The notes below the pieces were generated by a model. The model had not been told where the DNA came from. It was given only the letters and a program-made list of their open reading frames with translations, and ran no database searches. 40,867 bases of DNA, taken from positions 1-40,867 of the IMG/VR virus record IMGVR_UViG_3300045972_000372, one strand, 5' to 3'. The stretch comes from a virus. The position numbers were made by a program, and so were the translations under genes. Shown here one piece after another: positions 2 through 40,824 of the stretch (the first letter of the stretch is position 1; the number at the start of each line of letters is the position of its first letter).

Positions 2-529
2 TCCTCGAAGTGGCAGGAGCTCGTGGCGGCCAACGGCCTCGTCTACCCCTACGTCGACTTCTCGGGTGTCGACGGGGCGAAGGACGCGATCTACCTGGGC
101 CTCCCCGTCCTGGGCAAGGGGGACACGATCAAGCTCCCCACGACCGACGGGATCGTGGTGCCCACGGACCCCATCGGAACCGACATGCCCGACAGCGGGG
201 CGAAGAGCGTGCTCATCGGCGGGATTGAGAACCTCCGGGCGGCCCTGCTCCGGCGCCTGCGCACCCCACGCGGCTACATGCCCCACCACCCCAGCTACGG
301 CTCAACCATCCCCTCCTACGTGGGAAGCCCGCTCACTCCGGCCCTCGTGCTCTCGCTGCGCGGCGAGGTCCGTCGGGCGCTCCTCGAGGATCCGCGGGTC
401 ATCTCCGTCGACAGGGTCACGATGTCCGTCGGCCTCGACGACATCTTCGTGGAGGTCTCCGCGACGACGGCGATCGGCCCCATCTCCATCGGCGGTGCCG
501 TCGGCGGCGTGGTCCCTGGCAACAACTGA
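2..529 (+). CDS. Baseplate wedge protein, gp25/W-like, with LysM-like N-terminal segment (5' partial)
   Basis: The reading frame is open to the window edge and contains a W-x-E-L-V-x-x-N-G-L-x-Y-P stretch just before the GTG at 23, so the gene probably starts upstream and that GTG is internal. The first part resembles the LysM-like lead of baseplate proteins. The second half (IGGIENLRAALLRRL, RGYMPHHPSYGS, then EVRRALLEDPRVISVDRV) fits the gp25/protein W family. Family members form the wedge-to-hub contact of contractile-tail baseplates; despite the family's lysozyme name most are structural. The J-like gene follows 27 bases later, the usual W-J order. Seen: 175 residues plus stop. The family call is by motif recognition and the missing start is inferred. 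Confidence 0.8.
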   Translation, partial: SSKWQELVAANGLVYPYVDFSGVDGAKDAIYLGLPVLGKGDTIKLPTTDGIVVPTDPIGTDMPDSGAKSVLIGGIENLRAALLRRLRTPRGYMPHHPSYGSTIPSYVGSPLTPALVLSLRGEVRRALLEDPRVISVDRVTMSVGLDDIFVEVSATTAIGPISIGGAVGGVVPGNN

Positions 530-556
530 TTCAGCTACAATCAATCGAGGGATGCC

Positions 557-1786
557 ATGACTTTCGTGCCGCGCAACTATGTCGACCTCACCTCTGCGAT
601 GGTGGCGTGGCTTGGATCGAACCCGGATGCCAAGGATGGCGTCACCCCGTCCGACCTCACCGTGGGAAGCCTCGAGCGTGCCCACCTCGAGGCCGTTGCG
701 ATCCTCATGGAGGAGTATGACCAGCGGGCCGCCGACGCCATCAAGGCCGCGATCCCCGAGTCCTGCTTCTACGCCTTCGGCTTCTCCAAACTCCCGCCCG
801 TGGCATCCACCACGACGCTCGTGTGCAGCTCCTTCGTGGCCGTGCCCTACAACGTCACCATCCCCATCGGGACCACGTTCCAGGGGCCGAACGGCGTGCT
901 CTTCCTGTCGACCACGACCGGCACCATCCTCTCCGGCCAGACCGTCTCGGACAACATCTCCGCCAAGGCGACCGTGACCGGCATCACTGGGAACGTGGCC
1001 GAAAATACAATCTCGCGCATCGTGACCCCCATCCAATACCTCGACACGGTCACGAACCCCCAGGCCGCCCTGGGCGGGGCCGAGGAGGAGGGCGACGACT
1101 CTCGTGCGCTCCGCTTCCAGGCCTACCTCCGGACCCTCGTGCGGGGCACCAAGGAGGCGCTCGAGTTCGCGGCCATGTCCGTGCCTTCGCAGACCGTCCT
1201 CGACGCGCGGGCCATCGAGCCCTTCCTGCTGGATCCAGTCCCCGACGGCGTTCCCTACGCTGGCAAGGTGTGGCTCTTCGTGGACGACGGCACGCTGTCG
1301 ACGACCCTGGGCACCACCACGGAGACCGAGGTCTACAACGCCGTGAACGGCTACATCGACCCGTCGGGAACCAAGGTGCCGGGCTACAAGGCCGCGGGCG
1401 TGATCGTGGACATCCTGAAGTCGACGCCCGTTCCGGTGTGCGTGCGAGCCCAGGTGAAGCTCGCCTCCGGCGCCGTGGCCCGGTGGGTCGACATCCAGGC
1501 CTCCCTCACGGCCGCGATGAACGCCTACTTCAGCAACCTCCGGATCTCCGAGGTGGCCAGCTACCAGAACCTCGTCACCACCCTCACCACCTGCGATGCC
1601 GACATCCGCGAGGTGAACCTCGTGTTCTGGAAAGCGTCTGGCACCGTGCCGGACTATGCCGCGGCGATCATGGCCTCGGACATCACCCCCATCGACTCTT
1701 CGACGCCCCTGAGCCTCGGCTGGCGCTTGCGCCCCTTGCAGGACGTGTCGGCGGGCGTCACCTACCCGGAGTGGATCCTTGCGTGA
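557..1786 (+). CDS. Baseplate J-like protein
   Basis: A 409-residue protein starting at ATG with GAGGG about 5 bases upstream. It matches the baseplate J/Mu gp47 family in layout. There is an N-terminal segment with LxVGSLERAHLEAVAILMEE, a central GNVAENTISRIVTP loop, then an EEEGDDSRALRFQAYLRTLVRGTKEALEF signature and a C-terminal half with DGVPYAGKVWLFVDDG. These proteins form the baseplate wedge of contractile tails. It lies between the W-like gene and the hub gene, and its stop codon overlaps the next start (TTG at 1779). Family assignment is firm; the exact structural class (Mu-like or P2-like) is not. Confidence 0.85.
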   Translation: MTFVPRNYVDLTSAMVAWLGSNPDAKDGVTPSDLTVGSLERAHLEAVAILMEEYDQRAADAIKAAIPESCFYAFGFSKLPPVASTTTLVCSSFVAVPYNVTIPIGTTFQGPNGVLFLSTTTGTILSGQTVSDNISAKATVTGITGNVAENTISRIVTPIQYLDTVTNPQAALGGAEEEGDDSRALRFQAYLRTLVRGTKEALEFAAMSVPSQTVLDARAIEPFLLDPVPDGVPYAGKVWLFVDDGTLSTTLGTTTETEVYNAVNGYIDPSGTKVPGYKAAGVIVDILKSTPVPVCVRAQVKLASGAVARWVDIQASLTAAMNAYFSNLRISEVASYQNLVTTLTTCDADIREVNLVFWKASGTVPDYAAAIMASDITPIDSSTPLSLGWRLRPLQDVSAGVTYPEWILA

Positions 1787-3830
1787 ACTATTCGTCAAGG
1801 GATACGCCGTCCACGTGCTGGTGGAGGCATCACTTGTCGACACCGATCCCCTGGACAAGACGCGCTACTACAAGCTCGACGCCACCATCGGATCGGACCT
1901 CGTGGCGAAAGTGTGCTCGCTCACGACGAAGGCCGCCGACGGGAAGGACACCACCCTCAAGGTTCCGCTCGCCGTAACCGGCGTCGACACCTCCGAGGCC
2001 CTCACCAGCGATCAGAGCGCGGGCATCACCTTCTCTGGTGCATCCGTTGTGGCGACCGCCCTGAAGGATCGCGTGCGCTGCATGGACCGCGTGCGCATCG
2101 AGCTCACGGATGGCAAGGAGTGGAGCCTTGGCTTCGACGGCTTCGTGAACCAGGAGAGTAGCAAGCTCACCTCGACGAACGACCGCTACTCGACCTCCTT
2201 CTCGATCTCCGCCTCCGGCCTGTGGAAGTTCCTCTCGCAGAGCTGGTTCAACTGGCAGGGCGCCATCCAGCCGGGCTACGACTTCGCCACCACGAAGGCA
2301 GGCGACACCCTGTTCCGGAAGCTGGCGGAGAACCCGTCCCAGCCTGCGCAGAACATCATCAAGCTCTTCATCAACGCCGCGCTCGGCATCGTGAAGCTCA
2401 AGACGGCCGAGGGCCAGATCCGGCCGGGCAAGTTCTTCGAGTTCGGCATTGGCACCGACTGGACCTCCGCCTTCGACCTCGCCTACCCGCTCCCGGTCAC
2501 GACCCTCCCTACCTACAAGGGGCCGCTGTCCGGCATCATCGGCGAACTCGCCCAGCCCGACATCCACGAGTGCTACGCGACCTACCGGAAGTTCGGGGAC
2601 ACCTGGAAGCCCACGATCATATTCCGGCCACGGCCCTACCCTGGCGGCCCCGGCGACGATGCTGGCTGGAAGGCCCTGAAAGTCAACAAGATCAAGGACG
2701 GCCCCGTCGGCAAGACGATCATGGACAGCCGCAACGACGGCCAGCACCCGAACGCCTTCCATTGGTCGGGAAGTTCCGCCTCCGACGCGGGCCTCACCGA
2801 GTTCCAGATGAAGCTCCTCCACGGCTTCAAGGTGGACCAGCGGAGCATCGACCGCTACGGCTACTCTGCACGGCCGGTGGGCTCCACGCTGCCCCCGCTG
2901 TCGATGGTGAAAAAGGACAACTTCACGCCCTACATCACGACCATCCAGAACCTCATGCTGCGCGTCGCCTACCAAGAGGCGCCCATGCCCGAGCTATGGA
3001 CGAGGACGATCCAGGTCTCCATGACCCCCGGCATCCACGTCGGCGAAATCCTCGAGGACTGGAGCACGGGCGTTCCCTGGACCGGCTACGTGTCGACAGT
3101 TTCCCACCGCATCCACGCGGACCCATGGGGGGCCTCCACCAACATCGGCATGGTGCGCTGTGTGCAGTGCGAGGCGAAGGACTACCCAGACATCGTCCGC
3201 GGGCTCGTGCAGATCGAGACCCGGCAGTATGTCGTGGCGAACACGGGCGGGGCGAAGAGCCTAGACGGCGTGAAGAGCGCCCAGCGCGGGGCGATCGACT
3301 CCACGTGCGCCCAGCCGGTCGCGGGCTTCCCCTTCGGCACCGGCATCATCAAGGCGGCTCACAACTACGGCGTCCCGCCCTACGTCCTGGCCCAGGTCAT
3401 CAAGTGCGAGTCCTCCTACGGGATGAACAAGACGCATCCGGGCGGGGGCGGAGGCATCGGCATCGCCCAGTTCCTGGCCTCCACAGCGAACGGCCTGAAC
3501 GCCATGGGCTACCCGAACACCTTCAACTCCTCCCTCGCCGCCTCGAACGATTGCCTGAGCATCGACGCCGCGGCGTGGTATCTCTCCTACCTCATGAAGC
3601 GCATCGCCACGGCGGGTCTCACCTTCTCGAATAGCTTCCCCGACCCCGAGAGCCAGTTCTACGCCTGGGTGCTCTACGCCTACAACAAGGGCGAGGGCAA
3701 CGCCACGACGCAAGGCCCGGCCCAGGCCTGGGCCTTCAGTCCAATCCAGCGGGCCTTCGTGGAGTGGAAAACCTACTGGAGCCCGTTCCAGGTGAAGAAC
3801 GCCTCCATGGCCTTCGCGGGGCTCAAATGA
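1779..3830 (+). CDS. Baseplate hub protein with C-terminal lytic transglycosylase domain
   Basis: A 683-residue protein. The TTG start at 1779 is chosen because GGAG lies 7 bases upstream inside the end of the J-like gene; the 8-base overlap implies translational coupling. Residues 1 to about 480 look like a baseplate hub or gpD/gp44-like protein (beta-rich, with DRVRIELTDG and a late GEILEDWSTG-type segment). Residues about 515-660 look like an SLT/goose-lysozyme-type transglycosylase: VLAQVIKCESSYG with Glu544 as the likely catalytic acid, then GGGIGIAQFLASTA and a VLYAYNKGEGNA segment. Such a domain would open peptidoglycan locally during injection. The spike gene follows with an ATGA overlap. 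The hub assignment rests mainly on position. Confidence 0.75.
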   Translation: MRELFVKGYAVHVLVEASLVDTDPLDKTRYYKLDATIGSDLVAKVCSLTTKAADGKDTTLKVPLAVTGVDTSEALTSDQSAGITFSGASVVATALKDRVRCMDRVRIELTDGKEWSLGFDGFVNQESSKLTSTNDRYSTSFSISASGLWKFLSQSWFNWQGAIQPGYDFATTKAGDTLFRKLAENPSQPAQNIIKLFINAALGIVKLKTAEGQIRPGKFFEFGIGTDWTSAFDLAYPLPVTTLPTYKGPLSGIIGELAQPDIHECYATYRKFGDTWKPTIIFRPRPYPGGPGDDAGWKALKVNKIKDGPVGKTIMDSRNDGQHPNAFHWSGSSASDAGLTEFQMKLLHGFKVDQRSIDRYGYSARPVGSTLPPLSMVKKDNFTPYITTIQNLMLRVAYQEAPMPELWTRTIQVSMTPGIHVGEILEDWSTGVPWTGYVSTVSHRIHADPWGASTNIGMVRCVQCEAKDYPDIVRGLVQIETRQYVVANTGGAKSLDGVKSAQRGAIDSTCAQPVAGFPFGTGIIKAAHNYGVPPYVLAQVIKCESSYGMNKTHPGGGGGIGIAQFLASTANGLNAMGYPNTFNSSLAASNDCLSIDAAAWYLSYLMKRIATAGLTFSNSFPDPESQFYAWVLYAYNKGEGNATTQGPAQAWAFSPIQRAFVEWKTYWSPFQVKNASMAFAGLK

Positions 3831-4576: not shown

Positions 4577-5390
4577 CTGGACCCTGGAGATCGACTACGC
4601 CGTGCTCGGCGAGATCGAGCCGGTCCTGTCGCAGCTCTTCGCCTCGATCGGTGTCGACAGCTTCCCGCGCTACGCGGAGGCGGCCGAAACTATCTCCGAG
4701 AATGCGGAGCAGCTCTACAAGGGCTACCTCCTGGGGAAGCCCATGCAAAACGGACAGACGGTCAAGTCCCCCTCGAAGGAGGCGGCCGAGGGCGTGGCCC
4801 GGCGTGCGGCTGGCCAGCTCCAGTGGGACTTGATGAACACTGTCGACGAGGCCAAGCGCATCGAGGAGGGCGCCCCCGCCTTCGACATGAAGAGCGTGCT
4901 GCCCACGTCCAAGAAGGCCCGGATGAGCAAGGAGGGGTTCCTCTACCTCATCATCCCCTTCCGGCACGGGAACCCGAACGCCACGAGCCTTCAGCCGATG
5001 CCGAAGGCCATCTACAAGATCGCCAAGCAGCTCTCCTACTCCTACCAGCTCGGCACCATCGGCTCGAGGAAGTCGGCGGCCACGGGCGCCAAGGTGCCGG
5101 TGTTCGGCTACCAGTGGGGCGACAAGCTCCAGGCGGGCCTCGCCCCGAAGAAGAGCCCAGGGCACAAGGGCGACATCTACGCGGGCATGTATCGCTTCAA
5201 CGGCCCGAAGCAGAGCGAGTTCATCACGTTCCGAACCATGAGCCAGAAGTCGACAGGGTGGATCAAGAAGGCCACGCCCGGCTACTACCCCCTCCAACAG
5301 GCCCTCCAGGTGGCCATGAACGAAGGCAAGCCCTCGCTGGCCGCTGCCATCCAAGAGGACTTCGCGGCCATGCTCGGGCTCGTCGACTAG
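4569..5390 (+). CDS. Unrecognised tail or virion-assembly protein
   Basis: A 273-residue protein starting at ATG 4569, overlapping the spike gene by 8 bases, with AAAGG 5 bases upstream. It is the last gene of the rightward baseplate unit and ends 5 bases before the convergent fibre operon. Visible features are a charged N-terminal half, the segment FITFRTMSQKSTGWIKKA near residue 220, and a C-terminal QALQVAMNEGKPSLAAAIQEDF helix. The FRTMS-x-KS-x-GWI stretch resembles one seen in HK97 gp10-like and virion-morphogenesis proteins. That resemblance is from memory and weak. A tail-completion or minor structural role is an inference from position. Confidence 0.45.
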   Translation: MPSWTLEIDYAVLGEIEPVLSQLFASIGVDSFPRYAEAAETISENAEQLYKGYLLGKPMQNGQTVKSPSKEAAEGVARRAAGQLQWDLMNTVDEAKRIEEGAPAFDMKSVLPTSKKARMSKEGFLYLIIPFRHGNPNATSLQPMPKAIYKIAKQLSYSYQLGTIGSRKSAATGAKVPVFGYQWGDKLQAGLAPKKSPGHKGDIYAGMYRFNGPKQSEFITFRTMSQKSTGWIKKATPGYYPLQQALQVAMNEGKPSLAAAIQEDFAAMLGLVD

Positions 5391-5850: not shown

Positions 5851-7554
5851 GCCTGTGCCGCCGCCACCCCCGCCGCCCCCACCACCAGTGGTGGACCAGC
5901 TCGTGGTGTAGTTGATGACCTTCTCGACCGTGACCGGGCTTCCCGCGCTGTCGACGCACCGCAGGCGCACCTTGTAGGGGCCTGCATTGAGCTGGGTCGA
6001 GGTGAGGGCACCGCTGTCGACAGTTCCGGCAGAGCTGTTCCAGGTGGCGCCGGGGAGAGTGGTGTCGGCGCCAGCCACGAGGCTCCAGGTGTAGGGCGTG
6101 GTGCCGCCCGCGCCGATGGGGGTGAAGGAGAGCACGAACGTCCCGGCGCCCGTCTTGGCGTAGGACACGTCCCCGCTCGTGATGCTCAGGGCCACCACCG
6201 AGTAGGGGTTGACCGTGAGGCTGATCTGCTTCTGGACCGTCCGGGGCGTGCCCGCGCTGTCCGTGGCTTGGAGCTTGATCTGGAACACCTTCGGCAGGGT
6301 GCCGGGGTTGGCCGTCCAGGCCACGTGCATCGTGTTTCCGGAGAACGTCACGGCGGGGTCGGTGGCGCCCGTGATGAGGCCGCTCCCGGCCACGGCGCTC
6401 CAGGTGACGACGCCGACGGCATTGATGGCCGTGAGGCCGATGTCCACGGAGTCGGGCCACGTCTGGGACGCGCTTGCCGTCATGACCTTGTCGGTGGTGG
6501 CGATGCCCAGGGCCGCCAGGGTGCTCGGGTCGCCAAGGAACTTCACGGAGCCGCGCATGTAGCCGCCGCGGAAGCTGTCGTGGTTGATCTGGATGAAGGG
6601 ATCAGTCCAGGTCGGGTCGACGTAGACAAGCGCGTAGGTGGTCTGATCCTCGTCATCCGCGACCGTGTCGCCGATCTCGTCCGCGATGAGGGTCGTCCCG
6701 TTGTAGCCCAGAATGATGCGGGTCGCATTTAGCATCCCGGCGCCGCCGTAGAGGCTGTTGCAGACCGCGATGACCTCGTAGAGGCCCGTCTTGGTGAGGC
6801 TCAGGGTGTTCGCGTCCCTGACCACCACGGCTCCGCCGTAAATCTTCACTCCCGTCATGGGCACGGCCTGGAAGTTCCCACCACCAGTCGCGGGCGGGTT
6901 GCCCCGGAAGGAGGCCGCCTCGATGAGCTGGGCGGTGCCGATCGCGTCGATGCGGGCCTTGAGGTTCGGGAAGGCGTTCCTGGCCGTGACCACCTCGCCG
7001 GTCACGAGGGCGTGGTAGTCGAGGCGGAGGTCGGTGGGAGCGTAGCGTTCGATGGCGGGCGGCCCGGTCACAGGCACGCGGACCCTGGCCAGGATGACGG
7101 CCCGGTTCCCGCCCACGTCGTAGGGGTCGGGCACGGTCGGGTCGACAGGCACGGCCGCGGGGGTGCCGGTGACGACGACGTAGGTGGGCATCTGGGCCGC
7201 GGTCAGAGCTCCGGTGGGCAGGAGGCTCACGGGGTCCGTCGGCCCGGCCACCCACTTGTGGTAGCCGATGAGGAGGTCGATGCGGGGGTTGGCCGCGGGG
7301 CCGGAGATGTTGAGCTGCACCGGCCCGGTCTCCTCGACGACGTAGCGGCCGTGGCCGACGTCTCCAGGCGAGCGCCAGACCGACCGCCCATTGGCCGCAT
7401 TGACCCCCAGGGAGGCCGTCCACCCCGCTCCGCCCCCTGCACCAGCGATGGTGGGCTCGAGGCCCTCGTAGACCCCGGCAGGGAGCCCGATGGACCGTGC
7501 GATCTCGGAGTCGTCGATGGGCGATCCGTAGAGGGGGTGGATGGTCGTGGTCAT
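5395..7554 (-). CDS. Tail fibre with Ig-like repeats and C-terminal Hint (intein-like) domain
   Basis: A 719-residue protein, last gene of the leftward fibre operon, with AGGA 5 bases before the ATG. Residues 1 to about 330 look like a virion-attached fibre head. Residues about 370-560 hold two Ig/cadherin-like units, each with a (L/R)(Q/R)(A/C)xDSAG core. A run of about ten glycines follows. Residues 569-719 look like a Hint domain: Cys569 in CVPAGTLFELADGS, a block-B-like CSCDHRPY, and a C-terminal VYVAGGMPAHN ending at Asn711. Residue +1 is Ile, not Cys/Ser/Thr, so classical splicing is unlikely. Cleavage or transfer at the Cys, as in bacterial intein-like domains, is more plausible. This activity is inferred. 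Confidence 0.75.
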   Translation of the reverse strand: MTTTIHPLYGSPIDDSEIARSIGLPAGVYEGLEPTIAGAGGGAGWTASLGVNAANGRSVWRSPGDVGHGRYVVEETGPVQLNISGPAANPRIDLLIGYHKWVAGPTDPVSLLPTGALTAAQMPTYVVVTGTPAAVPVDPTVPDPYDVGGNRAVILARVRVPVTGPPAIERYAPTDLRLDYHALVTGEVVTARNAFPNLKARIDAIGTAQLIEAASFRGNPPATGGGNFQAVPMTGVKIYGGAVVVRDANTLSLTKTGLYEVIAVCNSLYGGAGMLNATRIILGYNGTTLIADEIGDTVADDEDQTTYALVYVDPTWTDPFIQINHDSFRGGYMRGSVKFLGDPSTLAALGIATTDKVMTASASQTWPDSVDIGLTAINAVGVVTWSAVAGSGLITGATDPAVTFSGNTMHVAWTANPGTLPKVFQIKLQATDSAGTPRTVQKQISLTVNPYSVVALSITSGDVSYAKTGAGTFVLSFTPIGAGGTTPYTWSLVAGADTTLPGATWNSSAGTVDSGALTSTQLNAGPYKVRLRCVDSAGSPVTVEKVINYTTSWSTTGGGGGGGGGGTGCVPAGTLFELADGSIPVELVAVGMLARGYDDANLEPVIAEITKVYVYEDRTLMRITTTMGSLVCSCDHRPYRRHADGEVNEHGNYPPASQLVPGDITRWEAAPGDVHDVEVVSVEFLEERATVYHVTMDRGHVYVAGGMPAHNIIKQPSMD

Positions 7555-10063: not shown

Positions 10064-10387
10064 TCAGGGCGCCTTCGGGGGATAGAGCTGGCCCGTCGAG
10101 CTCGCGTATTGCACCTTCTCCTTGTAGATCGGGGGGAAGGTGAGGATGAGCTGTCGACCCATGGGGGGCGGTGGGATCTTCGAGCGGACGGTGTTCCCGA
10201 GGGTGTCCAGCATCTTCCCGAAGAGGGTCATGCGCTTGTCGAAGGCGGGCGGGATGTAGAAGCACACCTTGGCCGACGTCTGCTTGTTCGGCACGCCCAC
10301 CTGATACTGGGTTTTCGGGAGCAGGCGCGTCGGGGTAATCCACATGACGCCAGTGGGGTCGATGAAGGCCTTCACGGGAGCGGCCAT
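10064..10387 (-). CDS. Small fibre-cassette protein, copy A
   Basis: A 107-residue protein starting 3 bases after the TAA of large fibre A, without a convincing Shine-Dalgarno, so coupling is likely. The C-terminus (PPMGRQLILTFPPIYKEKV, GQLYPPKAP) matches copy B at 7570-7893; the N-terminal 65 residues are different. The shared residues MGRQ are encoded here with the rare Arg codon CGA, which creates a GTCGAC site (10153-10158), while copy B uses CGC and has none. Function unknown. Confidence 0.65.
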   Translation of the reverse strand: MAAPVKAFIDPTGVMWITPTRLLPKTQYQVGVPNKQTSAKVCFYIPPAFDKRMTLFGKMLDTLGNTVRSKIPPPPMGRQLILTFPPIYKEKVQYASSTGQLYPPKAP

Positions 10388-10390
10388 GAC

Positions 10391-12340
10391 TTAGGTCGGC
10401 TTGTTGTAACCGGCGAGGATCGCCCCGCCGTTGATGAGCACGAACCACAGGCCCTGGCCCACCTTGTCGCCGATGTAGTGGTTCACGGCGATGGTGGCGT
10501 ATTTCCCGCCCGTGACGCCCGTGAGGTTGTTGCCGCTCTTCCCGGTGTATTGGAAGGCCTCGTTCCCGATGACCACGAAGCCCGCCGTCTGGAACGAGCT
10601 CGCGTCGGTGAGGACCATGGTCGTGTCGCCGATGGTGAACTTGGCGGCGAGGCCGGTAGTGGCCACGGTGTCGGCCACGAGGGTCAGGCTCTCGTTCGTC
10701 GCGGTGCCACGGAACTTGAACCAGTCCTCGACCTCCCATCCTGGAGCAAGGTATTCGGGATATCCGACACTTATGGGCGCAAAGGATCCAGGCGTGGCGC
10801 TGGCTCCAATGCACTTCACCCGGTGGATCTGGAAGTCGTTGCCAACCTGGGAGTCGTCGTAGAACATGCCGCTCCCGAAAAGGCGGATCAGGGTCGTCTG
10901 GCTCCTATTCCCAGACTGGCCAGCAATCGTTCCGGCGTTCCCGTTGACAGAATTACAAAGTGCATCCATCCACCGATGTCGCCTCATCCCGCTTCCAGGT
11001 TGTGCCTGGGTGTAGGTGCCATTCCAGTCCTGGTCCCCACCACAGATGGGAGCCATCATCCACACCGAACCAGCGCAGCGACCCCATGAATCCATGTCCG
11101 TGCTCGCGTCGTCGTAGCCCACGAGGAGTTCCTGGACTGTGACGAACTGGTTGTCGACAGGCAAGTAGGCCACCTGGGCCGCGTTCGTGCAATAGCAGGC
11201 GTGCACGGGGCCGTAGTAGTTCGCGTTCGTCTTGGTGGCGAGCGCGATGCCGCGGGCGCTGACCTGGATGTAGTAGATGAACCCATTGATGAGGTCCATC
11301 GTTAGGTTGACCCCCGTTGTCCAGAAGTTCCAAGGCAGAGGCCAGTTTGCCCCGGTAGCGTGAGTCAGGAGTGCGGCTGTAACATTGGATCCCGTAAAGG
11401 TCATCACGGGTCCAGCCGTTCGGTTGATGCCGTAGATATAGGTCGCAGAGTCGTCGGCATTCTGCGTGGGCGGGAAGGAAATCTCCCAGTCCCAGGCGGT
11501 CCACGTGGCGTTCACCGAGCTCCGGATGGCGTCGTAGAGGCCGAGGAGATTCTGGTAGGCCGAGTTCCCTCCGACGCCCGTGTAGGACACAGTTTGTCCA
11601 CTCAGGGTCGCGGAGCACGTCACGGCGCCAGCGGTGAGGGCCTTGATGTAAACCTGTTGCCCCTTGGCCGTGGTCCACTTCTTCGTGGGATACACGGCGA
11701 TAGACGAACCGCCGAAGGAAAACACGACGGACTCGAAAGCCCCATTCCCTCCGATAGTTTCGGTCACGGGTGGAATGACCTCGAACATATTCCAGTTCAC
11801 GATTTGCTTGTTGGCGGCGTCCATGAACATCACGTCCGGGATGGTGATGTTCGTTCCGCCATTCTTGGCGGTGACGTTGATGCGCCAGTAGCTCTTCGCG
11901 GGGGCTCCGGCGATGGCATAGGAGCGCGTCTCCCCAGAGTATCCATTCGTGGCGGCCTCGATCCAGTTCGCCTCGCCCGTGACCGTCTGGTGGGTCGTCC
12001 AGGAGCTTCCATCGTTGGACCAGTCGATAGTGAAGGCGTTCGGGCACTCCGCCGAAAGAGCGGCTCCGGTTATGAGCACCTTGGTCGGAGTGAAGGGCGT
12101 GGGTGTCTGGCACCCAATCCAAAGCGGCAGGCCTGCCGCAGAGGTGGCCACGGCCGCAGAGGATCCGTCGAATGCGTTCGCCACGGTGCCCAAGTTCCCA
12201 AGCATCGCAGATGGGACAAGCCCGCTCCGAAGGAGCTGCCAGTTCCGGCTCGTGATGGCCGTCTCGATGGCGGCCTGTGCGTCCGCGATGGTGGCTCCGA
12301 GAGGGACGAGGAAACTCTCGAACCCGATGAACTGAGACAT
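10391..12340 (-). CDS. Large tail fibre or receptor-binding protein, copy A
   Basis: A 649-residue protein. AGGAGG, lying inside the last codons of the upstream gene, is 6 bases before the ATG. It is a paralogue of the 716-residue copy B, with matching N-terminal (GFESFLVPLGATIADAQAA), middle (MDLINGFIYYIQVSARG, ALATKTNANYYGPVHA) and C-terminal (VADTVATTGLAAKF, GLWFVLINGGAILAGYNKPT) blocks. It lacks the roughly 95-residue insertion of copy B. Its central carbohydrate-binding-like segment (SAFTIDWSNDGSSWTTHQT-type beta strands) recalls discoidin-like folds, but this is only an impression. A receptor-binding role is inferred from duplication and divergence next to a Hint-domain fibre. Confidence 0.7.
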   Translation of the reverse strand: MSQFIGFESFLVPLGATIADAQAAIETAITSRNWQLLRSGLVPSAMLGNLGTVANAFDGSSAAVATSAAGLPLWIGCQTPTPFTPTKVLITGAALSAECPNAFTIDWSNDGSSWTTHQTVTGEANWIEAATNGYSGETRSYAIAGAPAKSYWRINVTAKNGGTNITIPDVMFMDAANKQIVNWNMFEVIPPVTETIGGNGAFESVVFSFGGSSIAVYPTKKWTTAKGQQVYIKALTAGAVTCSATLSGQTVSYTGVGGNSAYQNLLGLYDAIRSSVNATWTAWDWEISFPPTQNADDSATYIYGINRTAGPVMTFTGSNVTAALLTHATGANWPLPWNFWTTGVNLTMDLINGFIYYIQVSARGIALATKTNANYYGPVHACYCTNAAQVAYLPVDNQFVTVQELLVGYDDASTDMDSWGRCAGSVWMMAPICGGDQDWNGTYTQAQPGSGMRRHRWMDALCNSVNGNAGTIAGQSGNRSQTTLIRLFGSGMFYDDSQVGNDFQIHRVKCIGASATPGSFAPISVGYPEYLAPGWEVEDWFKFRGTATNESLTLVADTVATTGLAAKFTIGDTTMVLTDASSFQTAGFVVIGNEAFQYTGKSGNNLTGVTGGKYATIAVNHYIGDKVGQGLWFVLINGGAILAGYNKPT

Positions 12341-26070: not shown

Positions 26071-26295
26071 ATGTCCACCCTGAAGTCCTTCAAGGATCGC
26101 AACGTCGAGGCCGTCTACAAGGCCGTCCGGCACGCGACCACCTCGACGAAGGACTGTGGGATCAGCGCCCCCAACATCCAGAAGAAAACCGGGCTCTGCA
26201 TCCGCACCGTCCAGACCCACCTTCGTTCCCTTCGTGACGACGGCCGCGCCTTCAACCACCGCGGCCTTTGGTCCACTGTCGACCTTTCCTCTTGA
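26071..26295 (+). CDS. Small winged-helix DNA-binding protein
   Basis: A 74-residue protein. The middle (SAPNIQKKTGLCIRTVQTHLRSLRDDG) is a clear helix-turn-helix with a wing, like small ArsR/MarR-type regulators or the wing of replication proteins. It starts 17 bases after the hairpin terminator, with a poor Shine-Dalgarno, so some read-through may be needed. Target unknown. Confidence 0.65.
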   Translation: MSTLKSFKDRNVEAVYKAVRHATTSTKDCGISAPNIQKKTGLCIRTVQTHLRSLRDDGRAFNHRGLWSTVDLSS

Positions 26296-28844: not shown

Positions 28845-28870
28845 ACTGTCGACACCCTCAAGGAGCCCAC

Positions 28871-30013
28871 GTGACCAACGAATCCACCCCCCTCGAGGGG
28901 ATCATCGTAAACGACGAGGACATCGTCTCGTTCCCCGTGAACGGCCTACCCGACGCGAAACTCCTGTCGCCCCTGTGGCACACCGAGGGCGCCGTGGAGC
29001 CCATCCTGGAGAGGCTCAGGACCGTCATCCGGTCCATGCCGAAGGGCAACGTCCTCACCAAGACGGGCCGGGCGGAGATCGCCTCCCTCGCCTACAAGAT
29101 CGCGGGGGCCAAGAGCCGCCTCGAGAAGTTCGGCAAGGAGCTCGCCGACGACGCGAAGAACCTGCCCAAGATCATCGACGGCAACCGGCGCATCCTGAAG
29201 GACGGCCTCGAGGAGCTCCAGGTTGAAGTCCGGAAGCCCCTCGACGACTTCGACGAAGAGCTACTCCGGCTGAAGAGCAAGCTGGAAGCCATCCGGGCCA
29301 ATGCGCCGTCCTTCATGGATCGCACGGCCGAGCAGCTCCAGGCCCGGCTAGATGCCCTGAAGGCCATGACCATCGCCTCCTCTGAGTGGGGGGACATGGC
29401 CGAGGAGGCTGTCGACGCCCGTGCCCAGTCCGTCGCCACCCTGACCGGCATGCTGGCCCAGCGCGTCACCTACGACGCCGAGCAGGTGGAACTCGAGAAG
29501 CTCCGGGTCGAGAAGGCCGCGCGGGAGCAGGCAGACCGAGACGCCGAGATCGCCAAGAAGGCCGCCGAGGAGGCCACGCGCACCGCCGAGGAGAAGATCG
29601 CCGCCGAGCACCTGAAGGAGGTTCTAGCTCTCCAGGCCGCCAAGGATGCGAAGGAGGCCGCAGAGAAGGCCCAGAAGGAGGCAGAGGAGGCCCAGGAGCG
29701 AGCGGAAGCCCGTGCACGTGAAGTAGAGGCCCAGGCCAACCAGCAGGCCGAGGAGGCCCGTTTGCGGGCCATCGAGGAGGAGCAGACCAAGCAACGCCTC
29801 GAGCAGGAGGCCAGAGACGCCGAGCAGAAGAAGCGCGACGACGACGTCGAACACCGTCGGGCCTTCAACCGTGAGGCCCTGACAGACATCGTCACCGCCA
29901 TCAAAGGGGCGCCGTTCGCCACCTCCCAAGAGGACGTGGATTCAGTCATGGCCACGGCTATTCTCACGGCCATCGTCCAGGGTAAAATTAAACACGTTCG
30001 ACTCACCTACTGA
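28871..30013 (+). CDS. Long coiled-coil early protein
   Basis: A 380-residue protein. GTG 28871 is chosen for AAGGAG 5 bases upstream; the frame is open far upstream but overlaps the preceding gene there. Residues about 50-150 resemble a common phage protein (LTKTGRAEIASLAYKIAGAK, GNRRILKDGLEELQVEVRKP). Residues about 195-320 are almost continuous coiled coil rich in Ala/Glu/Lys. The last 40 residues form a small domain (ALTDIVTAIKGAPF). It may be a nuclease-inhibitor or annealing partner as in other phage recombination regions, but no motif proves this. Confidence 0.6.
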   Translation: MTNESTPLEGIIVNDEDIVSFPVNGLPDAKLLSPLWHTEGAVEPILERLRTVIRSMPKGNVLTKTGRAEIASLAYKIAGAKSRLEKFGKELADDAKNLPKIIDGNRRILKDGLEELQVEVRKPLDDFDEELLRLKSKLEAIRANAPSFMDRTAEQLQARLDALKAMTIASSEWGDMAEEAVDARAQSVATLTGMLAQRVTYDAEQVELEKLRVEKAAREQADRDAEIAKKAAEEATRTAEEKIAAEHLKEVLALQAAKDAKEAAEKAQKEAEEAQERAEARAREVEAQANQQAEEARLRAIEEEQTKQRLEQEARDAEQKKRDDDVEHRRAFNREALTDIVTAIKGAPFATSQEDVDSVMATAILTAIVQGKIKHVRLTY

Positions 30014-30280: not shown

Positions 30281-30648
30281 GCCCGAGCCTGATCTTCTGG
30301 AGCATCGTCGTCACCTCTGTGTGCGTCGCGGCTGGATTCGCGCTGACCCAGCTACTCGAGGAACGCTACGACCTCCGCCGCCGTGAGCGCCCGCGCGTGA
30401 CCAACGCCGACCTCCGCAAAGCAACCGAGAAGCTATTCGACGAGGACCGCTACCGTCGGGCCGCTATGGCCGCTGACCGGCCGCGGGCCACCGTGAGCTG
30501 GCGGGCCAAGTGGTTCCGTGTCCAGCACGGCATTGGCGTCGAGCCGGTCGAGTTCACCACTGTCGACAGCCCACTCACCGGGTTCGAGGAAGCCTGGGAC
30601 GAGTGGGTGAAGCGCATTCAAGCATTTTGTTCGAGAGGTGTCTTGTGA
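30277..30648 (+). CDS. Small membrane-anchored protein
   Basis: A 123-residue protein starting at GTG 30277, coupled to the preceding gene by GTGA. It has an N-terminal transmembrane helix (LIFWSIVVTSVCVAAGFALT), a basic stretch (RYDLRRRERPRV), and a soluble C-terminal part. No family recognised. It could sit in the inner membrane together with the product of the preceding gene. Confidence 0.6.
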   Translation: MSPSLIFWSIVVTSVCVAAGFALTQLLEERYDLRRRERPRVTNADLRKATEKLFDEDRYRRAAMAADRPRATVSWRAKWFRVQHGIGVEPVEFTTVDSPLTGFEEAWDEWVKRIQAFCSRGVL

Positions 30649-31107: not shown

Positions 31108-31353
31108 ATGGCCAGACCTGTCCCGCGCTTTATCCCCATCACGCTCAACCTTCCGACTTTCGAGTTAAGGCTCGAGTTTGAGGGCGTTCAAATCATTCAA
31201 GAGAACCACGCACGCGCCGACGTCTTGGGCGACTTTGGGAGTGACGACCGTGTCGTCATCGTCCCGAGCACTGTCGACGAGGCCCACGACCTCGCCTTGG
31301 CCTTCCGGAAGGCGGCACGCCGCCTCGAGGAGATCGGGCGGGGGATGAAGTGA
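31108..31353 (+). CDS. Unrecognised small protein under the structured leader
   Basis: An 81-residue protein. GGAGG (31099-31103) lies 4 bases before the ATG, inside a GC-rich palindrome. The fold looks alpha/beta (ITLNLPTFELRLEFEGVQII, DRVVIVPSTVDEAHDLALAF, then a basic helix RKAARRLEEIGRGMK). It is followed by the HNH gene with a TGATG overlap. No family recognised. If the leader is regulatory, this gene is its first target. Confidence 0.55.
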   Translation: MARPVPRFIPITLNLPTFELRLEFEGVQIIQENHARADVLGDFGSDDRVVIVPSTVDEAHDLALAFRKAARRLEEIGRGMK

Positions 31354-32791: not shown

Positions 32792-34130
32792 TCGCATGCC
32801 CATCCCTGAAGATCCCAACGCAGAGCGGTCCCTGGTCTCGTGCGTTTACTCCGGCTTCCGGATGGCCGACGCAGACGCGCAGAAGGCCATCCTAGAGCTC
32901 GAGGGGGATGCTTTCCATGTTCCACAGGCCCGAGCGACCTGGACGGCCATGCTGGCCCTCTACAAGGCCGGGGAGCCCATCGACCCCATGACGATCCACG
33001 CCAAGCTCCAGGGCCTGAAGCTGGACGGCGTGGTCGGCGGCTACCGCGGGCTCATGGAAGTCCTGAACCACGACGAGTTCGGCAACGCGGCCCCACTGGT
33101 CCGGCGTCTAAAGGAGCTGCACCAGCGCCGGAAGATGATCCGGATGGCGGCCGAGCTCGACATCCAGGCCCGCGACCTCGTGGCGGATCCGGTCCAGGCA
33201 CTGTCGACGCACGCCTCGAGCGTGATGTCCATGAGCATGGGCAACCGGGACTACCCCCGGCGCTCCGGCCGGGATCTGGCCGCGCGGCTGGCACTGGGCG
33301 AGTCTTTCCGGCCGGGCGGGGCCGCGGGCAAGCTCCTCCGCCTTCCGATCCACCGCTGGGACGAGGCCATCGAGTGCGCCCCTGGGCACGTGATTGTGGT
33401 CGGCGCCCGGCCCAAGGTGGGCAAGACGGCCTTCGCTGTCGACGCCATGGTCAAGACGGCCTCCTGGGGCCACCACGTGGGCTTCGTGAGCCTCGAGATG
33501 GACAACGACGAGGTGGAGGCCCGCATCGCCGCCCGGATGACCGGCATCAACGCCACGCGGTTCGCCAAGGGGGAATGGACCCAGCACGAGGTGGGCGTCG
33601 CCATGGCAGAGACCGGCATCCTCGACCGGATGCACTGGTGGTGCCACCCCTCCGGCGTGTCGTGGGCGCGGGTGGAGGCAGAGATCCGGGAGATGGTCCG
33701 GCTGAAGGGCGTCACCGCGGTCGTCATCGACTACTTCACCCTCATCGGGAAGCCTGAAGGGGCCAAGGGGGCCACGGACGCCACCCTCTGGGGCCAGCTC
33801 TCCATGGCCATCAAGCGCCTCGCCCAGGAGCTGCGCATCTGCATCCTCCTCCTCGCCCAGCTCAACCGGCAGGGCGCCGATGGCGAGCCGAACAGCAGCG
33901 ACCTCCGGGAGACGGGCCAGCTCGAGCAGGACGCGAACGCGATCATCCTCCTCTGGAGGGAAGGCACGGCCGTCGTCACCGTCTGGGGCAAGGTGTCCGA
34001 AAATAGAAGCGGCCCGGCTGTGGGCAAGCGGGAGCTCGAGTTCGACGGGGGCACCTGCATCTTCAAGGGCGGGGACAAGGAAACGAAACCAGCAGGGGAA
34101 TCGGCTGTGGCCGGATGGGGGAAGCCGTGA
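32784..34130 (+). CDS. DnaB-type replicative helicase
   Basis: A 448-residue protein; ATG 32784 overlaps the initiator stop. The N-terminal domain has PNAERSLVSCVY and the usual helical region. The RecA-like domain has a Walker A at about residues 206-214 (GARPKVGKT; Lys replaces the common Gly), VSLEMDNDEVEARIAARMTG, a Walker B VVIDYF near residue 312, and LLLAQLNR with a SDLRETGQLEQDANAIILL end. It unwinds DNA at the fork and would be loaded by the upstream initiator. Family assignment is firm. Confidence 0.88.
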   Translation: MTDRMPIPEDPNAERSLVSCVYSGFRMADADAQKAILELEGDAFHVPQARATWTAMLALYKAGEPIDPMTIHAKLQGLKLDGVVGGYRGLMEVLNHDEFGNAAPLVRRLKELHQRRKMIRMAAELDIQARDLVADPVQALSTHASSVMSMSMGNRDYPRRSGRDLAARLALGESFRPGGAAGKLLRLPIHRWDEAIECAPGHVIVVGARPKVGKTAFAVDAMVKTASWGHHVGFVSLEMDNDEVEARIAARMTGINATRFAKGEWTQHEVGVAMAETGILDRMHWWCHPSGVSWARVEAEIREMVRLKGVTAVVIDYFTLIGKPEGAKGATDATLWGQLSMAIKRLAQELRICILLLAQLNRQGADGEPNSSDLRETGQLEQDANAIILLWREGTAVVTVWGKVSENRSGPAVGKRELEFDGGTCIFKGGDKETKPAGESAVAGWGKP

Positions 34131-34513
34131 GTGAAGTGCAACTGAACAGCCAGCAGATGGACCTGATCCTGGAGGTGGGCTGGGCCAACAGCGCCCGCGG
34201 GGAGGAGATCGTCCAGCGCCTCGACAAGCTGATCGAACTGTCGACACCCAGGGCACTTGTGACCAAGGATGGGGTCAACTGGACCGAGGCCCTGCCGCCC
34301 CCCGACTGGGAGGGGATCGCTGAGACCCGGAAGGGCCGGATCGAGCAGCTCGAGCACGACCTCCGGAACGCCCAGTTCGCGGCCGAGGCCCTCGTGGTGG
34401 TCCGGCAAACCATCCTTGGCCGGGCCGTCGACAGGGTCAAGGTGGCATGGAGCACGGGCGCCACGATCGACTGGGACCAACTCGAAAGAACCATCCGAGG
34501 AGAAGAGTCATGA
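34127..34513 (+). CDS. Unrecognised small protein after the helicase
   Basis: A 128-residue protein. GTG 34127 is preferred because it overlaps the helicase stop (GTGA) and follows a GGGGGAAG Shine-Dalgarno; an in-frame ATG lies at 34115. Mostly helical (GEEIVQRLDKLIELS, RKGRIEQLEHDLRNAQFAAE). No family recognised. Confidence 0.55.
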   Translation: MSEVQLNSQQMDLILEVGWANSARGEEIVQRLDKLIELSTPRALVTKDGVNWTEALPPPDWEGIAETRKGRIEQLEHDLRNAQFAAEALVVVRQTILGRAVDRVKVAWSTGATIDWDQLERTIRGEES

Positions 34514-35479: not shown

Positions 35480-35531
35480 CAAAAGTTTGCACTTCCGGTT
35501 GACGAAATACTGTCGACAGTGCAAACTTTTG
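35480..35531 (+). promoter_or_regulatory. Promoter P3 inside nested inverted repeats
   Basis: CAAAAGTTTGCACT (35480-35493) and AGTGCAAACTTTTG (35518-35531) are perfect 14-base arms. Between them lie TTGACG (35499-35504) and, 17 bases on, CAAACT (35522-35527) within the right arm. The spacer holds ACTGTCGACAGT (35509-35520), a full copy of the GTCGAC family palindrome. The predicted start near 35534 coincides with ATG 35535, so the message may be leaderless. Confidence 0.65.
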
Positions 35532-35534
35532 GCC

Positions 35535-36711: not shown

Positions 36712-36719
36712 GAGCGATC

Positions 36720-37973
36720 ATGAGCGTGAAGTTCTATCCCTGCGGAGCCGCTGTGTCACCGGCCGCCGATCTACCCGATGCCTGCCCCATCCACGGGGAC
36801 GAGTGCACTGTCGACGCCGAGCACGACGCCGCGGTCAAGGCCTACGCCGAGAACGTCCTCTTGCCCACGATGCAGGCCGAGGCCGAAGCGAAAGCCGCGT
36901 CCGAAACCATTCTTGTTCGGCATGACGACACCGAGGCGAGCCTGCCTCACCAAGTGGAGCTGCCCGCGGAGAGTGGGATCGTCCTGCCCGACCCGGTGGG
37001 CTTCGAGGTGGAGCTGCCGAAGTGGGTGCCGATGGACGAGCCGTCCATGATCGCCCTGCACTGGTGGGCCAGCTTGGCGACCCACCTGAACGTCATGCTG
37101 CGCGTGTTCAAGGCGGAGCCCGGCGTCGACAACCACCGGGCCGTCTACCAGCTCGACAAGGCCGTGCGCTACACGGGCCAGATCATCCGGAAAACCCTGG
37201 GGACCGTGGTCAACGGCGCCGTGCAGGCCGCGGCTGTGAAAGCCGCCGAGGAGGCTGTCGACCTGAATGCGGGCGTGGGAGAGCACACCGAGCTCGCCGC
37301 CTGGACCATGATTCTCCAGACGGCGTTCGGGATCGCCTGCGTGCAGGCCGTGGGCCATGGCGCCCAGAGTGACCTTGCCCAGGAGACCAAGGAGGTCTAC
37401 GAGTGGTCCAGGAGCGCCTTTGAGAGCCGCATCCAGGACGCCAACGTGGCCAAGATCGTCGTCACCATCTGCACGGGAACGAACACCGGCACCGTGGAGG
37501 AGAAGATGGAGCAGTGGTCCCAGGCTGTGGCCAGGGCCGCGGAAGGCCTGCCCGACGGCGCCATCCCCGGCCTGGAAGAGGCCCTGCCCAAGTTCATCGA
37601 CATCCAGGGGGAGGACGGCACCATCCAGCGCGTGCCCTTCAAGCTCCTGGAGGGGGAGGAGGCCCAGGCGGCCCTGCGAGAGGCCGAGGCGGCCGTCTCC
37701 TTCAAGCTGGATGCCCAGGGCATGGCCGACGTGCAGAAGCTGTTCCAGGAGGCCCTCCGGCCCTTCGTGGGGCGCCCCGTATCCGCGGAACTCCGGGCCG
37801 AAATGCTCGAGGCCGTGAAGCACGTCGTCGACAGCCTGCCCCCGCTCGTCACCATCGAGAGCATCGAGAGCAGGGGGACCAGTGTCGAGGTTCGGCTGAC
37901 CGATGACACGTTGTTTCACCTGCACTTCGTGGACGAACAGGCTGACAATGAAGGGCCGGAAGCCGCGGTCTAG
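36720..37973 (+). CDS. Unrecognised packaging-region protein
   Basis: A 417-residue protein with AGGAG 6 bases before the ATG. The N-terminus has CGAAVSPAADLPDACPIHGD, then EC, a Cys/His set that may bind zinc. The middle is helical (HWWASLATHLNVMLRVFKAE, VNGAVQAAAVKAAEEAVDLN). The C-terminal 60 residues (LRPFVGRPVSAELRAEML, LTDDTLFHLHFVDEQ) resemble a small alpha/beta domain. It lies between the terminase subunits, so it is probably virion- or packaging-related. No family recognised. Confidence 0.55.
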   Translation: MSVKFYPCGAAVSPAADLPDACPIHGDECTVDAEHDAAVKAYAENVLLPTMQAEAEAKAASETILVRHDDTEASLPHQVELPAESGIVLPDPVGFEVELPKWVPMDEPSMIALHWWASLATHLNVMLRVFKAEPGVDNHRAVYQLDKAVRYTGQIIRKTLGTVVNGAVQAAAVKAAEEAVDLNAGVGEHTELAAWTMILQTAFGIACVQAVGHGAQSDLAQETKEVYEWSRSAFESRIQDANVAKIVVTICTGTNTGTVEEKMEQWSQAVARAAEGLPDGAIPGLEEALPKFIDIQGEDGTIQRVPFKLLEGEEAQAALREAEAAVSFKLDAQGMADVQKLFQEALRPFVGRPVSAELRAEMLEAVKHVVDSLPPLVTIESIESRGTSVEVRLTDDTLFHLHFVDEQADNEGPEAAV

Positions 37974-37984
37974 GGGAGCACGCC

Positions 37985-38581
37985 ATGGGTGCAGAGGATG
38001 AAGCCAAGGGGTTGACGTCCATCGTGATTCAGATGAACGATGCCGACGCCAAGCGGTTCGTGGACCTGTGGAAGCAGGTGTCATCCTGCGAGGTGGCCTG
38101 CAAGCTGGTCCAGGTGGACGCATGCTCGCTGAACGAATACCAGCAGCGCGTGTTCAATGCCTTCGCCCGGCACTGCCCGGACAAGGCCTACACCGGGAAC
38201 GCCCTGGACATCGACACCCTCATGGCCGCCATCGAGGCCAAGACACCCAGGCCCGACGCATCCCACGCATCCCTGGAGGTGGCCGCGGAGAACTGGTTCA
38301 AGTGCTACGGCGACCCCATGGGTGGCTCGCGCACCCGCTGGCATGTCACCCGCGACTACCGGGAGGAGGACCGGCTCTGGGACACCATGGCCAGGACGCC
38401 GCGGTTCCTGGAGAAGGCTGAGGGCATCATGGCCGAGCGCCACGAGCTGAAGGTGGCCGCCAATAAGGCCGTCCTGTCCTCCTCTGGGAGCAAGCGCGTC
38501 AACGTCCTCCTCGAGCTGGCCAAGGCTGAGGAGGGGCGCATCCAGGATCTCGATGGGCACGACGAGGACACCAAGGTATGA
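37985..38581 (+). CDS. Unrecognised protein upstream of the large terminase
   Basis: A 198-residue protein, mostly helical and acidic. It has NEYQQRVFNAFARHCPDKAY and RTRWHVTRDYREEDRLWDTM segments. Its stop overlaps the large-terminase start (ATGA), so both are probably made together. The ATG at 37985 follows a weak Shine-Dalgarno (AGGGGAGC). No family recognised. Confidence 0.55.
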   Translation: MGAEDEAKGLTSIVIQMNDADAKRFVDLWKQVSSCEVACKLVQVDACSLNEYQQRVFNAFARHCPDKAYTGNALDIDTLMAAIEAKTPRPDASHASLEVAAENWFKCYGDPMGGSRTRWHVTRDYREEDRLWDTMARTPRFLEKAEGIMAERHELKVAANKAVLSSSGSKRVNVLLELAKAEEGRIQDLDGHDEDTKV

Positions 38582-40824
38582 CCGTCATCACGTCGCCAGG
38601 GCAGAAGAAGGCCCAAGCCCGGAAGCGCCAGTCGACAGCCGAGCTCATCCAGAGGGAGCAGGAAGCCCGCCTGGAGGCCGAGAGAGCCGCCGCGGCCATC
38701 GTCGCCCGCTACGAGGACGACGATGCCCTGGTGGGCGCCTGTGGGAAGCTCCTGGACGTGTTCGCGCCCTCCTGCCTGAAGATCCGCACCAAGCAGGGCG
38801 GGCCGCTCTGGCCGTTCGTCCTGAACTGGATCCAGGTGGACTACCTCACGGGCCTCCGGGAGCTGTTCACGGGCGGCAAGGGGGACTTCTTTCGAGGCAT
38901 CCGCGACCTGATCGTGAAGCCGAGGCAGTTGGGATTCAGCACCTTCATCGCGGCCCTGTTCTTCATGGACGGCCTACTGGAGCCCGGCCGTATCAGCGTC
39001 ATCGTCACCCACGACGACAAAATCTCCAAGGAGCTCCTGCGCACCTACAAGCTCTTCTACGACGAGCTGCCCGACGAGCTGAAGAAGGGGACACGGCTGC
39101 GCACGGCCGCGGCCAACGTCTATGAGATAGAGTTCGATGGGGTGCCCGAGGTCTCACGCTTCGAGATCCGCACCGAGAAGGGCACCGAGTGGCGGGGTGG
39201 CGTCATCCACAACCTGCACGCATCGGAAGCCGCCTTCTATGAGCACTGGGCCGACTTCATGGCGAGCTACGTCCAGGCCGTGCCCGCCTCCGGGAACATC
39301 ATCTTCGAGACCACCTGTAATGGCCGAAATGAGTTTTACGAGGAAGTCGTGCTGGCCATGGACGGCGCCAACGGCTACCGGGTCATCTTCTACGAGTGGT
39401 TCAAGCACCCGGAATACAAGCGCCCGTGGCATCCGGACGAGCAAGAGCCGCTCACCAAGGTCGAGCAGGATCTGGTGGCCGCCCATGGCCTCACGCTCGA
39501 GCAGATCGCGTGGCGCCGATGGAAGATCACCGAGGTCAAGGACAAGTTCCAGCAGGAATACCCAGAGACCCTCCTGGGGGCCTTCCTGGCCACCGGCCGC
39601 CCGTTCTTCGACCCGCTGGCTGTCGACAAGGGCCACGAGCGGGCCAAGGCCGCGGTCCTGGGCTTCGAGGATGGGAGCCGAGAGAAGCCCCGGCACCCGC
39701 GGGCCTACGTCACCGTCTACGAGGATCCGATCCCCGGCGAGCTCTACATCCTGTCGGCTGACATCGCCGAGGGCATCGACAAGGGGTCCGGCGACGGGGA
39801 GAAGGGCGGCGCCGACTTCAACTCCGCGGCCATGCTCAAGGTGTCGAACCTCAAGGTCGTCGCCGACATCCACGGCCGCATGCCGGTCGTCGAGTTCGCC
39901 GAGATCCTGAACCGCCTGGGGCGCCTCTATCAGGCCGTGCTGGCACCCGAGCGGAACAACCACGGGCACACGGTCGTCGCCTCACTCCAGAGGGCGGAAT
40001 ACCCAGAGCTCTACCACCACGCGGAATACAACGAGGAGGGCAAGCGGTTCCTGAAGGCGGGCTGGCCCACGAACGTCGTCACCCGGCCGCAGATGCTGGA
40101 CGCCCTGGACACGGTCATCCGCCGCGGGGCGCTGCACTACGACAACCCGGCATTCTGGAGGGAGGCTGATCGCTTCGTTCGGAACGAAAAGACCGGCAAG
40201 CCCGAGGCCATGGCGAGCTGGCACGACGACCGCATCATCGCCCTCGCCATCGCGGTCTACCTCGCCACCCTGGGGCGCACGGCCTGGGGCCTGGAGGCCA
40301 ACCCGTCGCGCGACGCCTCCGGATTCCCGAGGACGCCCGAGAGCTACGGGAAGGTGTCGACACCCCCGCTGGACAAGCGCGTGGCCGAAATCATCGAGGG
40401 CGGGCACCGCAAGATGGCCAAGGCCGGAATGCCCGTGCCCCCGCCCCCGCCCAAGACATCCCTCGCGGACATGAGGAAGGCGCACGCCGAGGCCAAGTTT
40501 GAGCCCCCGCCCCGCCCTGTGGAGGCCCCGGCCAACCCATTCAACCCGGCGCCCGCGGGCATGCCCACTGTGCCCAGCGTGCTCAAGACGTCGAACACGG
40601 CGGGGAGCCGAGTGCTCGAGGCCCTGGCAGAATTGAAGGACAAGAAGTCCCGCAGATGCCTGGACTGTCTGCATCGCAGCGATACGGGTTCCGGCCAGTG
40701 GTGTGCGTTCCTGCGCATGCGCATCCTGGACAGCGACCCGGCCTGCGACCGCTTTACCCTTCCAGAATCAGACGATGAGGATGGTATGCTCGAATCCGAC
40801 TTTGGGGGTGAATCATGGACGTGA
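38578..40824 (+). CDS. Terminase large subunit with Cys-rich C-terminal extension
   Basis: A 748-residue protein. The ATPase domain has a Walker-A-like KPRQLGFST at about residues 114-122 and the Walker B region HNLHASEAAFYEHW near residue 210. The nuclease domain shows SADIAEGIDKGSGD (Asp near residue 394), APERNNHG and HDDRIIALAIAVYL (near residue 549). It drives DNA into the prohead and cuts it. The last 150 residues are unusual: a Pro-rich linker, then CLDCLHRSDTGSGQWCAFLR with a further Cys, a possible zinc site. Otherwise typical in order and size. Confidence 0.85.
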   Translation: MTVITSPGQKKAQARKRQSTAELIQREQEARLEAERAAAAIVARYEDDDALVGACGKLLDVFAPSCLKIRTKQGGPLWPFVLNWIQVDYLTGLRELFTGGKGDFFRGIRDLIVKPRQLGFSTFIAALFFMDGLLEPGRISVIVTHDDKISKELLRTYKLFYDELPDELKKGTRLRTAAANVYEIEFDGVPEVSRFEIRTEKGTEWRGGVIHNLHASEAAFYEHWADFMASYVQAVPASGNIIFETTCNGRNEFYEEVVLAMDGANGYRVIFYEWFKHPEYKRPWHPDEQEPLTKVEQDLVAAHGLTLEQIAWRRWKITEVKDKFQQEYPETLLGAFLATGRPFFDPLAVDKGHERAKAAVLGFEDGSREKPRHPRAYVTVYEDPIPGELYILSADIAEGIDKGSGDGEKGGADFNSAAMLKVSNLKVVADIHGRMPVVEFAEILNRLGRLYQAVLAPERNNHGHTVVASLQRAEYPELYHHAEYNEEGKRFLKAGWPTNVVTRPQMLDALDTVIRRGALHYDNPAFWREADRFVRNEKTGKPEAMASWHDDRIIALAIAVYLATLGRTAWGLEANPSRDASGFPRTPESYGKVSTPPLDKRVAEIIEGGHRKMAKAGMPVPPPPPKTSLADMRKAHAEAKFEPPPRPVEAPANPFNPAPAGMPTVPSVLKTSNTAGSRVLEALAELKDKKSRRCLDCLHRSDTGSGQWCAFLRMRILDSDPACDRFTLPESDDEDGMLESDFGGESWT

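Follow-up and report, generated by a model that had tools for sequence, protein, structure and literature searches.

The window analyzed here is the whole 40,867-base stretch of IMG/VR record IMGVR_UViG_3300045972_000372 (64.9% G+C), and the element under study is the octamer CTGTCGAC, which is built on the palindromic core GTCGAC. The octamer is over-represented, kept in its exact form, neutral to orientation, spaced more evenly than chance and conserved at the DNA level, and its enrichment repeats in a second contig and in a relative. We put at about even the chance that this phage lineage keeps it by selection as a recognition site repeated across the whole genome, a viral equivalent of the HIP1 octamer in cyanobacteria.

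Genome and relatives

Among the products encoded in the window are a contractile tail sheath, baseplate wedge proteins, a terminase, a DnaB-like helicase, a RecE/Cas4-like exonuclease, an RdgC-like protein and a GH108 endolysin. The contig belongs to a myovirus, a bacterial virus without a close cultured relative. Megablast of the first 25 kb of the window against 50,697 phage records gave no match, and in comparisons with named phages neither terminase nor sheath exceeds about 30% identity. Wider relatives were sought by sheath alignment and none were found. No tRNAs were found.

A second IMG/VR contig, L006 (19,681 bases), shares an exact 127-base overlap with the window (L006:1–127 and window 40741–40867). 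It opens with a portal gene, directly behind the terminase of the window, and lacks the restriction sites that are absent from the window. Because of the overlap, the terminase-to-portal order and the common missing sites, L006 is taken to continue the same genome, which we infer to be at least 60.4 kb long. A relative, G002 (26 kb), has about 80% nucleotide identity to the window.

Octamer sites

GTCGAC occurs 79 times in the window, from 53 to 40356. CTGTCGAC is present 27 times, GTCGACAG 23 times and the decamer CTGTCGACAG five times, and distinct octamer sites number 45. The preliminary description of this DNA had given about 79 hexamers, about 45 octamer extensions and five decamers, and exact counting reproduced all three figures. 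The decamers it placed are real, but their true starts (6014, 18383, 22477, 30560 and 35510) differ from its positions by 0–5 bases. Sites in the window are listed below from the exact sequence count; "octamer" stands for CTGTCGAC, and "relative" refers to the alignment with the lineage of about 80% identity.

407..414, minus strand, octamer
905..912, plus strand, octamer
1295..1302, plus strand, octamer
3092..3099, minus strand, octamer
4653..4660, minus strand, octamer
4840..4847, plus strand, octamer
5249..5256, minus strand, octamer
5948..5955, plus strand, octamer
6014..6023, no strand, decamer CTGTCGACAG, octamer on both strands
7141..7148, minus strand, octamer
10151..10158, plus strand, octamer
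11153..11160, minus strand, octamer
12456..12463, minus strand, octamer
13727..13734, plus strand, octamer
14344..14351, minus strand, octamer
15232..15239, plus strand, octamer, same in relative
15537..15544, plus strand, octamer
15906..15913, plus strand, octamer, same in relative
16347..16354, minus strand, octamer, same in relative
17259..17266, plus strand, intergenic octamer, first of tandem pair, before ribosome-binding site, same in relative
17267..17274, plus strand, intergenic octamer, second of tandem pair, same in relative
18383..18392, no strand, decamer, minus-strand octamer same in relative
21612..21619, minus strand, octamer
21708..21715, minus strand, octamer, same in relative
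22477..22486, no strand, decamer CTGTCGACAG
22682..22689, minus strand, octamer, same in relative
23050..23057, minus strand, octamer
24540..24547, minus strand, octamer
25679..25686, minus strand, octamer
26276..26283, plus strand, octamer
27019..27026, plus strand, octamer
28846..28853, plus strand, intergenic octamer, right after stop codon, before ribosome-binding site
29409..29416, plus strand, octamer
30560..30569, no strand, decamer CTGTCGACAG
31271..31278, plus strand, octamer
33201..33208, plus strand, octamer
33436..33443, plus strand, octamer, same in relative
34238..34245, plus strand, octamer
34427..34434, minus strand, octamer
35510..35519, no strand, intergenic decamer, same in relative, 5 bases past conserved TTGACG
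36808..36815, plus strand, octamer
37255..37262, plus strand, octamer, same in relative
37827..37834, minus strand, octamer
38631..38638, minus strand, octamer, same in relative
39620..39627, plus strand, octamer, same in relative

Expected counts in coding sequence were obtained from two synonymous-codon shuffles over 47 genes called in this analysis. GTCGAC occurs 75 times in coding sequence against 34.4 or 35.3 expected (maximum 47 of 300), CTGTCGAC 27 times against 1.5 or 2.4 (maximum 8) and GTCGACAG 18 times against about 1.2 (maximum 5). TGTCGACA occurs 16 times against 0.6–1.1, and the decamer four times against 0.02–0.05. A match to codon-shuffled controls had been named beforehand as grounds for dropping the claimed excess; that refutation fails because no shuffle comes close to the octamer counts. 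CTGTCGAC ranks first among all 8-mers of the virus for over-representation, with an observed/expected ratio (O/E) of 12 against the codon shuffles. Under an order-2 Markov model, the two contigs together hold 78 octamers against 2.8 expected (O/E 28). The enrichment repeats in L006, which lay outside the data of the preliminary description (28 octamers against 2.1), and in the relative (27 against 1.7), where the top two words are TGTCGACA and CTGTCGAC.

Coding GTCGAC sites are read as Val-Asp in 55 cases, as xxG-TCG-ACx in 19 and with Arg in one; the four non-genic sites lie at 17261, 17269, 28848 and 35512. Val-Asp codons had been proposed as part of the cause and do underlie most of the coding hexamers, but a codon-context shuffle that keeps protein, codon use and neighbouring bases yields 3.6 octamers, not the 45 observed in coding sequence.

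Sites lacking a T flank are fewer than the null predicts, so enrichment of bare GTCGAC is ruled out. The whole excess lies in TGTCGAC, with C the preferred base before it. One-base variants of CTGTCGAC are mostly at or below the null, except GTGTCGAC and, weakly, TTGTCGAC, and the consensus is [C>G>T]TGTCGAC. CT stands on both sides of the core at 7 sites (13 expected if the ends were independent), and on one side with no T on the other at 49 (36 under independence). This one-sided excess and two-sided deficit identify the unit as an asymmetric octamer with a palindromic core and rule out the palindromic decamer as the unit. The sites had been introduced as a palindrome family, which holds for the core and is wrong in detail for the selected word.

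Two intergenic places have further structure. The back-to-back octamers at window 17259–17274 stand directly ahead of a ribosome-binding site and are unchanged in the relative. At window 35480–35531, a perfect 14-base inverted repeat with a 24-base loop (DNA fold z = -4.8) encloses the palindromic decamer together with a promoter-like TTGACG; in the relative the inner TTGACG...CTGTCGACAGTGCAAACTT is conserved and the outer arm is not.

Spacing and conservation

The joined contigs carry 71 sites over 60.4 kb, or one per 0.85 kb, in genic and intergenic DNA. Density is 1.22/kb in genes, which hold 67 of the 71, and 0.70/kb outside them (4 sites). With both strands pooled, the coefficient of variation (CV) of spacing is 0.72 against 0.98 for random placement (P about 0.002), the lowest CV among 271 words of like frequency. 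Orientations are mixed in order along the genome (27/23 in the window, 27/18 by coding sense), and, given the positions, the orientation labels are random. Evenness that belongs only to the pooled orientations favours a reader of double-stranded DNA that is blind to orientation and argues against transcription- or replication-strand signals. An RNA-level signal was ruled out, since the counts are alike on the two strands and for either coding sense. Strand-specific priming sites are not favoured, as the even spacing appears only in the union of orientations.

Conservation was tested at synonymous third positions inside octamers, restricted to codons that encode the same amino acid in the relative and agree with it in their first two bases, with the expectation taken from the same codons elsewhere. 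Identity to the relative was found at 32 of 38 positions against 22.7 expected (P = 0.00035), with the motif-created rare codons TCG, TCT, GCT, ACT and ACA as main contributors. GTCGAC is kept at 21 of 41 aligned places, compared with 34% for 6-mers overall, and all three aligned intergenic octamer sites are identical. The remaining sites were gained or lost between the window and the relative, so it seems that density, rather than each position, is maintained.

Many restriction palindromes are strongly avoided. Wholly absent from the window and L006 are GTAC (for which the codon shuffle predicts 87 in coding sequence), GCCGGC (73), GAAGAC (34), GGGCCC (33), CCCGGG (33), GCGCGC (30) and CAGCTG (24). 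GCCGGC, CCCGGG and CAGCTG are missing from the relative as well, but GGGCCC occurs there at 1.5 per kb, a difference that points to hosts with other restriction systems. A milder excess is seen in the two contigs for some palindromes outside the avoided set (CCGCGG 107 against 64, CTCGAG 90 against 56, GGCGCC 107 against 73). A Ref-like RecA-dependent nuclease (L006:16916–17530) and the RdgC-like protein (window 26304–27287) form an unusual recombination set beside the RecE-like exonuclease.

Host genomes and other viruses

About 950 bacterial and archaeal genomes were searched: 398 Pseudomonadota, 149 Acidobacteriota, 151 Chloroflexota, 119 Actinomycetota, 111 from the phylum of a Trueperaceae metagenome-assembled genome (MAG) and 28 mixed genomes picked because a triple octamer site occurs in them. 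The phage has CTGTCGAC at 1.22/kb; the highest whole-genome density among those searched, 0.375/kb, belongs to a haloarchaeal MAG. The second is 0.156/kb, in a Chloroflexi MAG that was examined in detail and dropped as a signature host; the word ranks 739th there. The rest have about 0.14/kb or less, mostly below 0.1. GTDB contigs were scanned for three octamers within short gaps; the matches listed are tandem repeats, including tandem-repeat genes of Paraburkholderia, Caballeronia and others, and background, with no signature genome among them.

A paired-site scan of viral contigs gave 25 matches, none shown to be enriched genome-wide. One unrelated viral contig has several octamers crowded into 350 bases inside its terminase gene (L144:2043–2391); it was rejected as a second enriched virus, the cluster being local to the terminase and not extending to relatives of that contig. 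MW202692 and Thermus phage Lalka27a, the closest named phages when terminase and sheath are compared, have zero copies in the stretches read. Literature retrieved for the decamer consisted of unrelated papers.

Interpretation

If the octamer is an iterated recognition site, a sequence-specific activity that binds double-stranded DNA, encoded by phage or host, would recognize the word in its exact form, whichever way it is oriented. The phage would keep about one site per 0.85 kb over about 60 kb, in genes and gaps, through synonymous codon choice. The benefit would be general (organizing, protecting, processing or repairing phage DNA) and not a matter of regulating individual genes, and the word would be read by a protein.

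In Synechocystis there is one HIP1 (GCGATCGC) per 1131 bp, presumably maintained by selection (PMC6604393), and cyanobacterial HIP words reach 500–2500 copies per Mb (PMC4390886). The phage word is like HIP1 in that one octamer tops all 8-mers at about one per kb (1.2 per kb, about 1200 per Mb), is maintained by selection beyond codon use, and has as its core a palindrome of the type-II methyltransferase kind. Its density resembles that of cyanobacterial HIP1 more than that of E. coli Chi. It differs in belonging to a phage, not a chromosome, and its flanks are non-palindromic; HIP words being palindromes, it is not a HIP family member. The word is HIP-like in strength and Chi-like in asymmetry.

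Several observations weigh against a selected recognition site. No host signature of CTGTCGAC was found among the genomes searched. Pfam and PHROGs revealed no methyltransferase domain in the phage proteins scanned; that neither was found sets the word apart from HIP1. The site may still serve for methylation or protein binding, the third role proposed earlier. No sequence-specific protein that binds CTGTCGAC was identified, and small proteins with weak helix-turn-helix matches (window 26071–26295; L006:8145–8495) are candidates only. A second relative, G001, is apparently a near-duplicate of G002, so one related lineage is available and the third-position test rests on it. Part of the conservation could follow from regional constraint, the test of orientation labels is weak, and spacing in the relative alone is not significantly even (P = 0.08).

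A further reading, which we regard as unlikely, makes the word an address label specific to the phage. A protein that the phage encodes or hijacks would read CTGTCGAC, at about one site per 0.85 kb, and so mark the whole viral genome independently of any host signature; the mark would serve to condense, package or replicate the DNA or to protect it from self/non-self nucleases.

It is unlikely that CTGTCGAC is the Chi word of a host RecBCD- or AddAB-type nuclease, in which case many copies in both orientations would soon halt degradation from any double-strand end and turn it to recombination. Like Chi (GCTGGTGG in E. coli and lambdoid phages), the word is an exact, asymmetric, orientation-bearing octamer that is selected and over-represented in phage DNA; it lies in coding DNA in both orientations with short, evenly kept gaps, and host Chi is over-represented in phages at an O/E above that of the host (PMC3784561). 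However, O/E is 28 at 1.2/kb here, compared with 2–5 at about 0.2/kb in Rec- lambdoid phages (PMC3784561). The phage word is 5–10 times stronger, it is evenly spread with spacing that is not orientation-specific, and its sequence is unrelated to Chi and unlike the Proteobacteria Chi variants, proposed in a study confined to one-base variants of GCTGGTGG. No enriched host was found in the genomes searched. Phages bearing recombinases carry fewer Chi, and this phage has a RecE-like exonuclease. As a Chi site, the word would bring to light a Chi not known before, and the phage would be an extreme example of mimicking self toward the host nuclease.

We likewise consider improbable a HIP-like signature of the true host, for example one tied to a GTCGAC/TCGA methyltransferase, with which the phage has equilibrated. 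A HIP1-like signature shared with the host had been proposed earlier; the density within the range of HIP-class words with methyltransferase sites (PMC4390886), the palindromic core, the genic spread and the evidence of selection fit, but the sharing is unsupported. All genomes searched lie far below the phage density, and the GTDB matches listed consist of tandem repeats and include no signature genome.

In cluster A mycobacteriophages such as L5, stoperators span about 13 bp, follow the direction of transcription and sit for the most part in short gaps between genes. Repressor sites or operators of this kind, also proposed earlier, are very improbable here. The likeness is one short site in many copies across a phage genome, with the decamer at 35510 inside a conserved TTGACG promoter-like element and two further non-genic places ahead of ribosome-binding sites. 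The reading is largely refuted by site distribution, since the octamers are mostly genic with balanced, mixed orientations; no integrase or immunity repressor was recognized in the scans made. A by-product of composition, Val-Asp codon choice or avoidance of other restriction sites, to which the share of Val-Asp sites and the many avoided palindromes point, is refuted by the codon-context shuffle and leaves conservation and spacing unexplained.

If the address label were true, a HIP-like system would be owned by a virus. To our knowledge, HIP1 has had no accepted explanation since the 1990s. A virus of about 60 kb with an octamer at HIP1 density, evenly spaced and synonymously conserved, would offer a far smaller system in which to find the reader of such a word.

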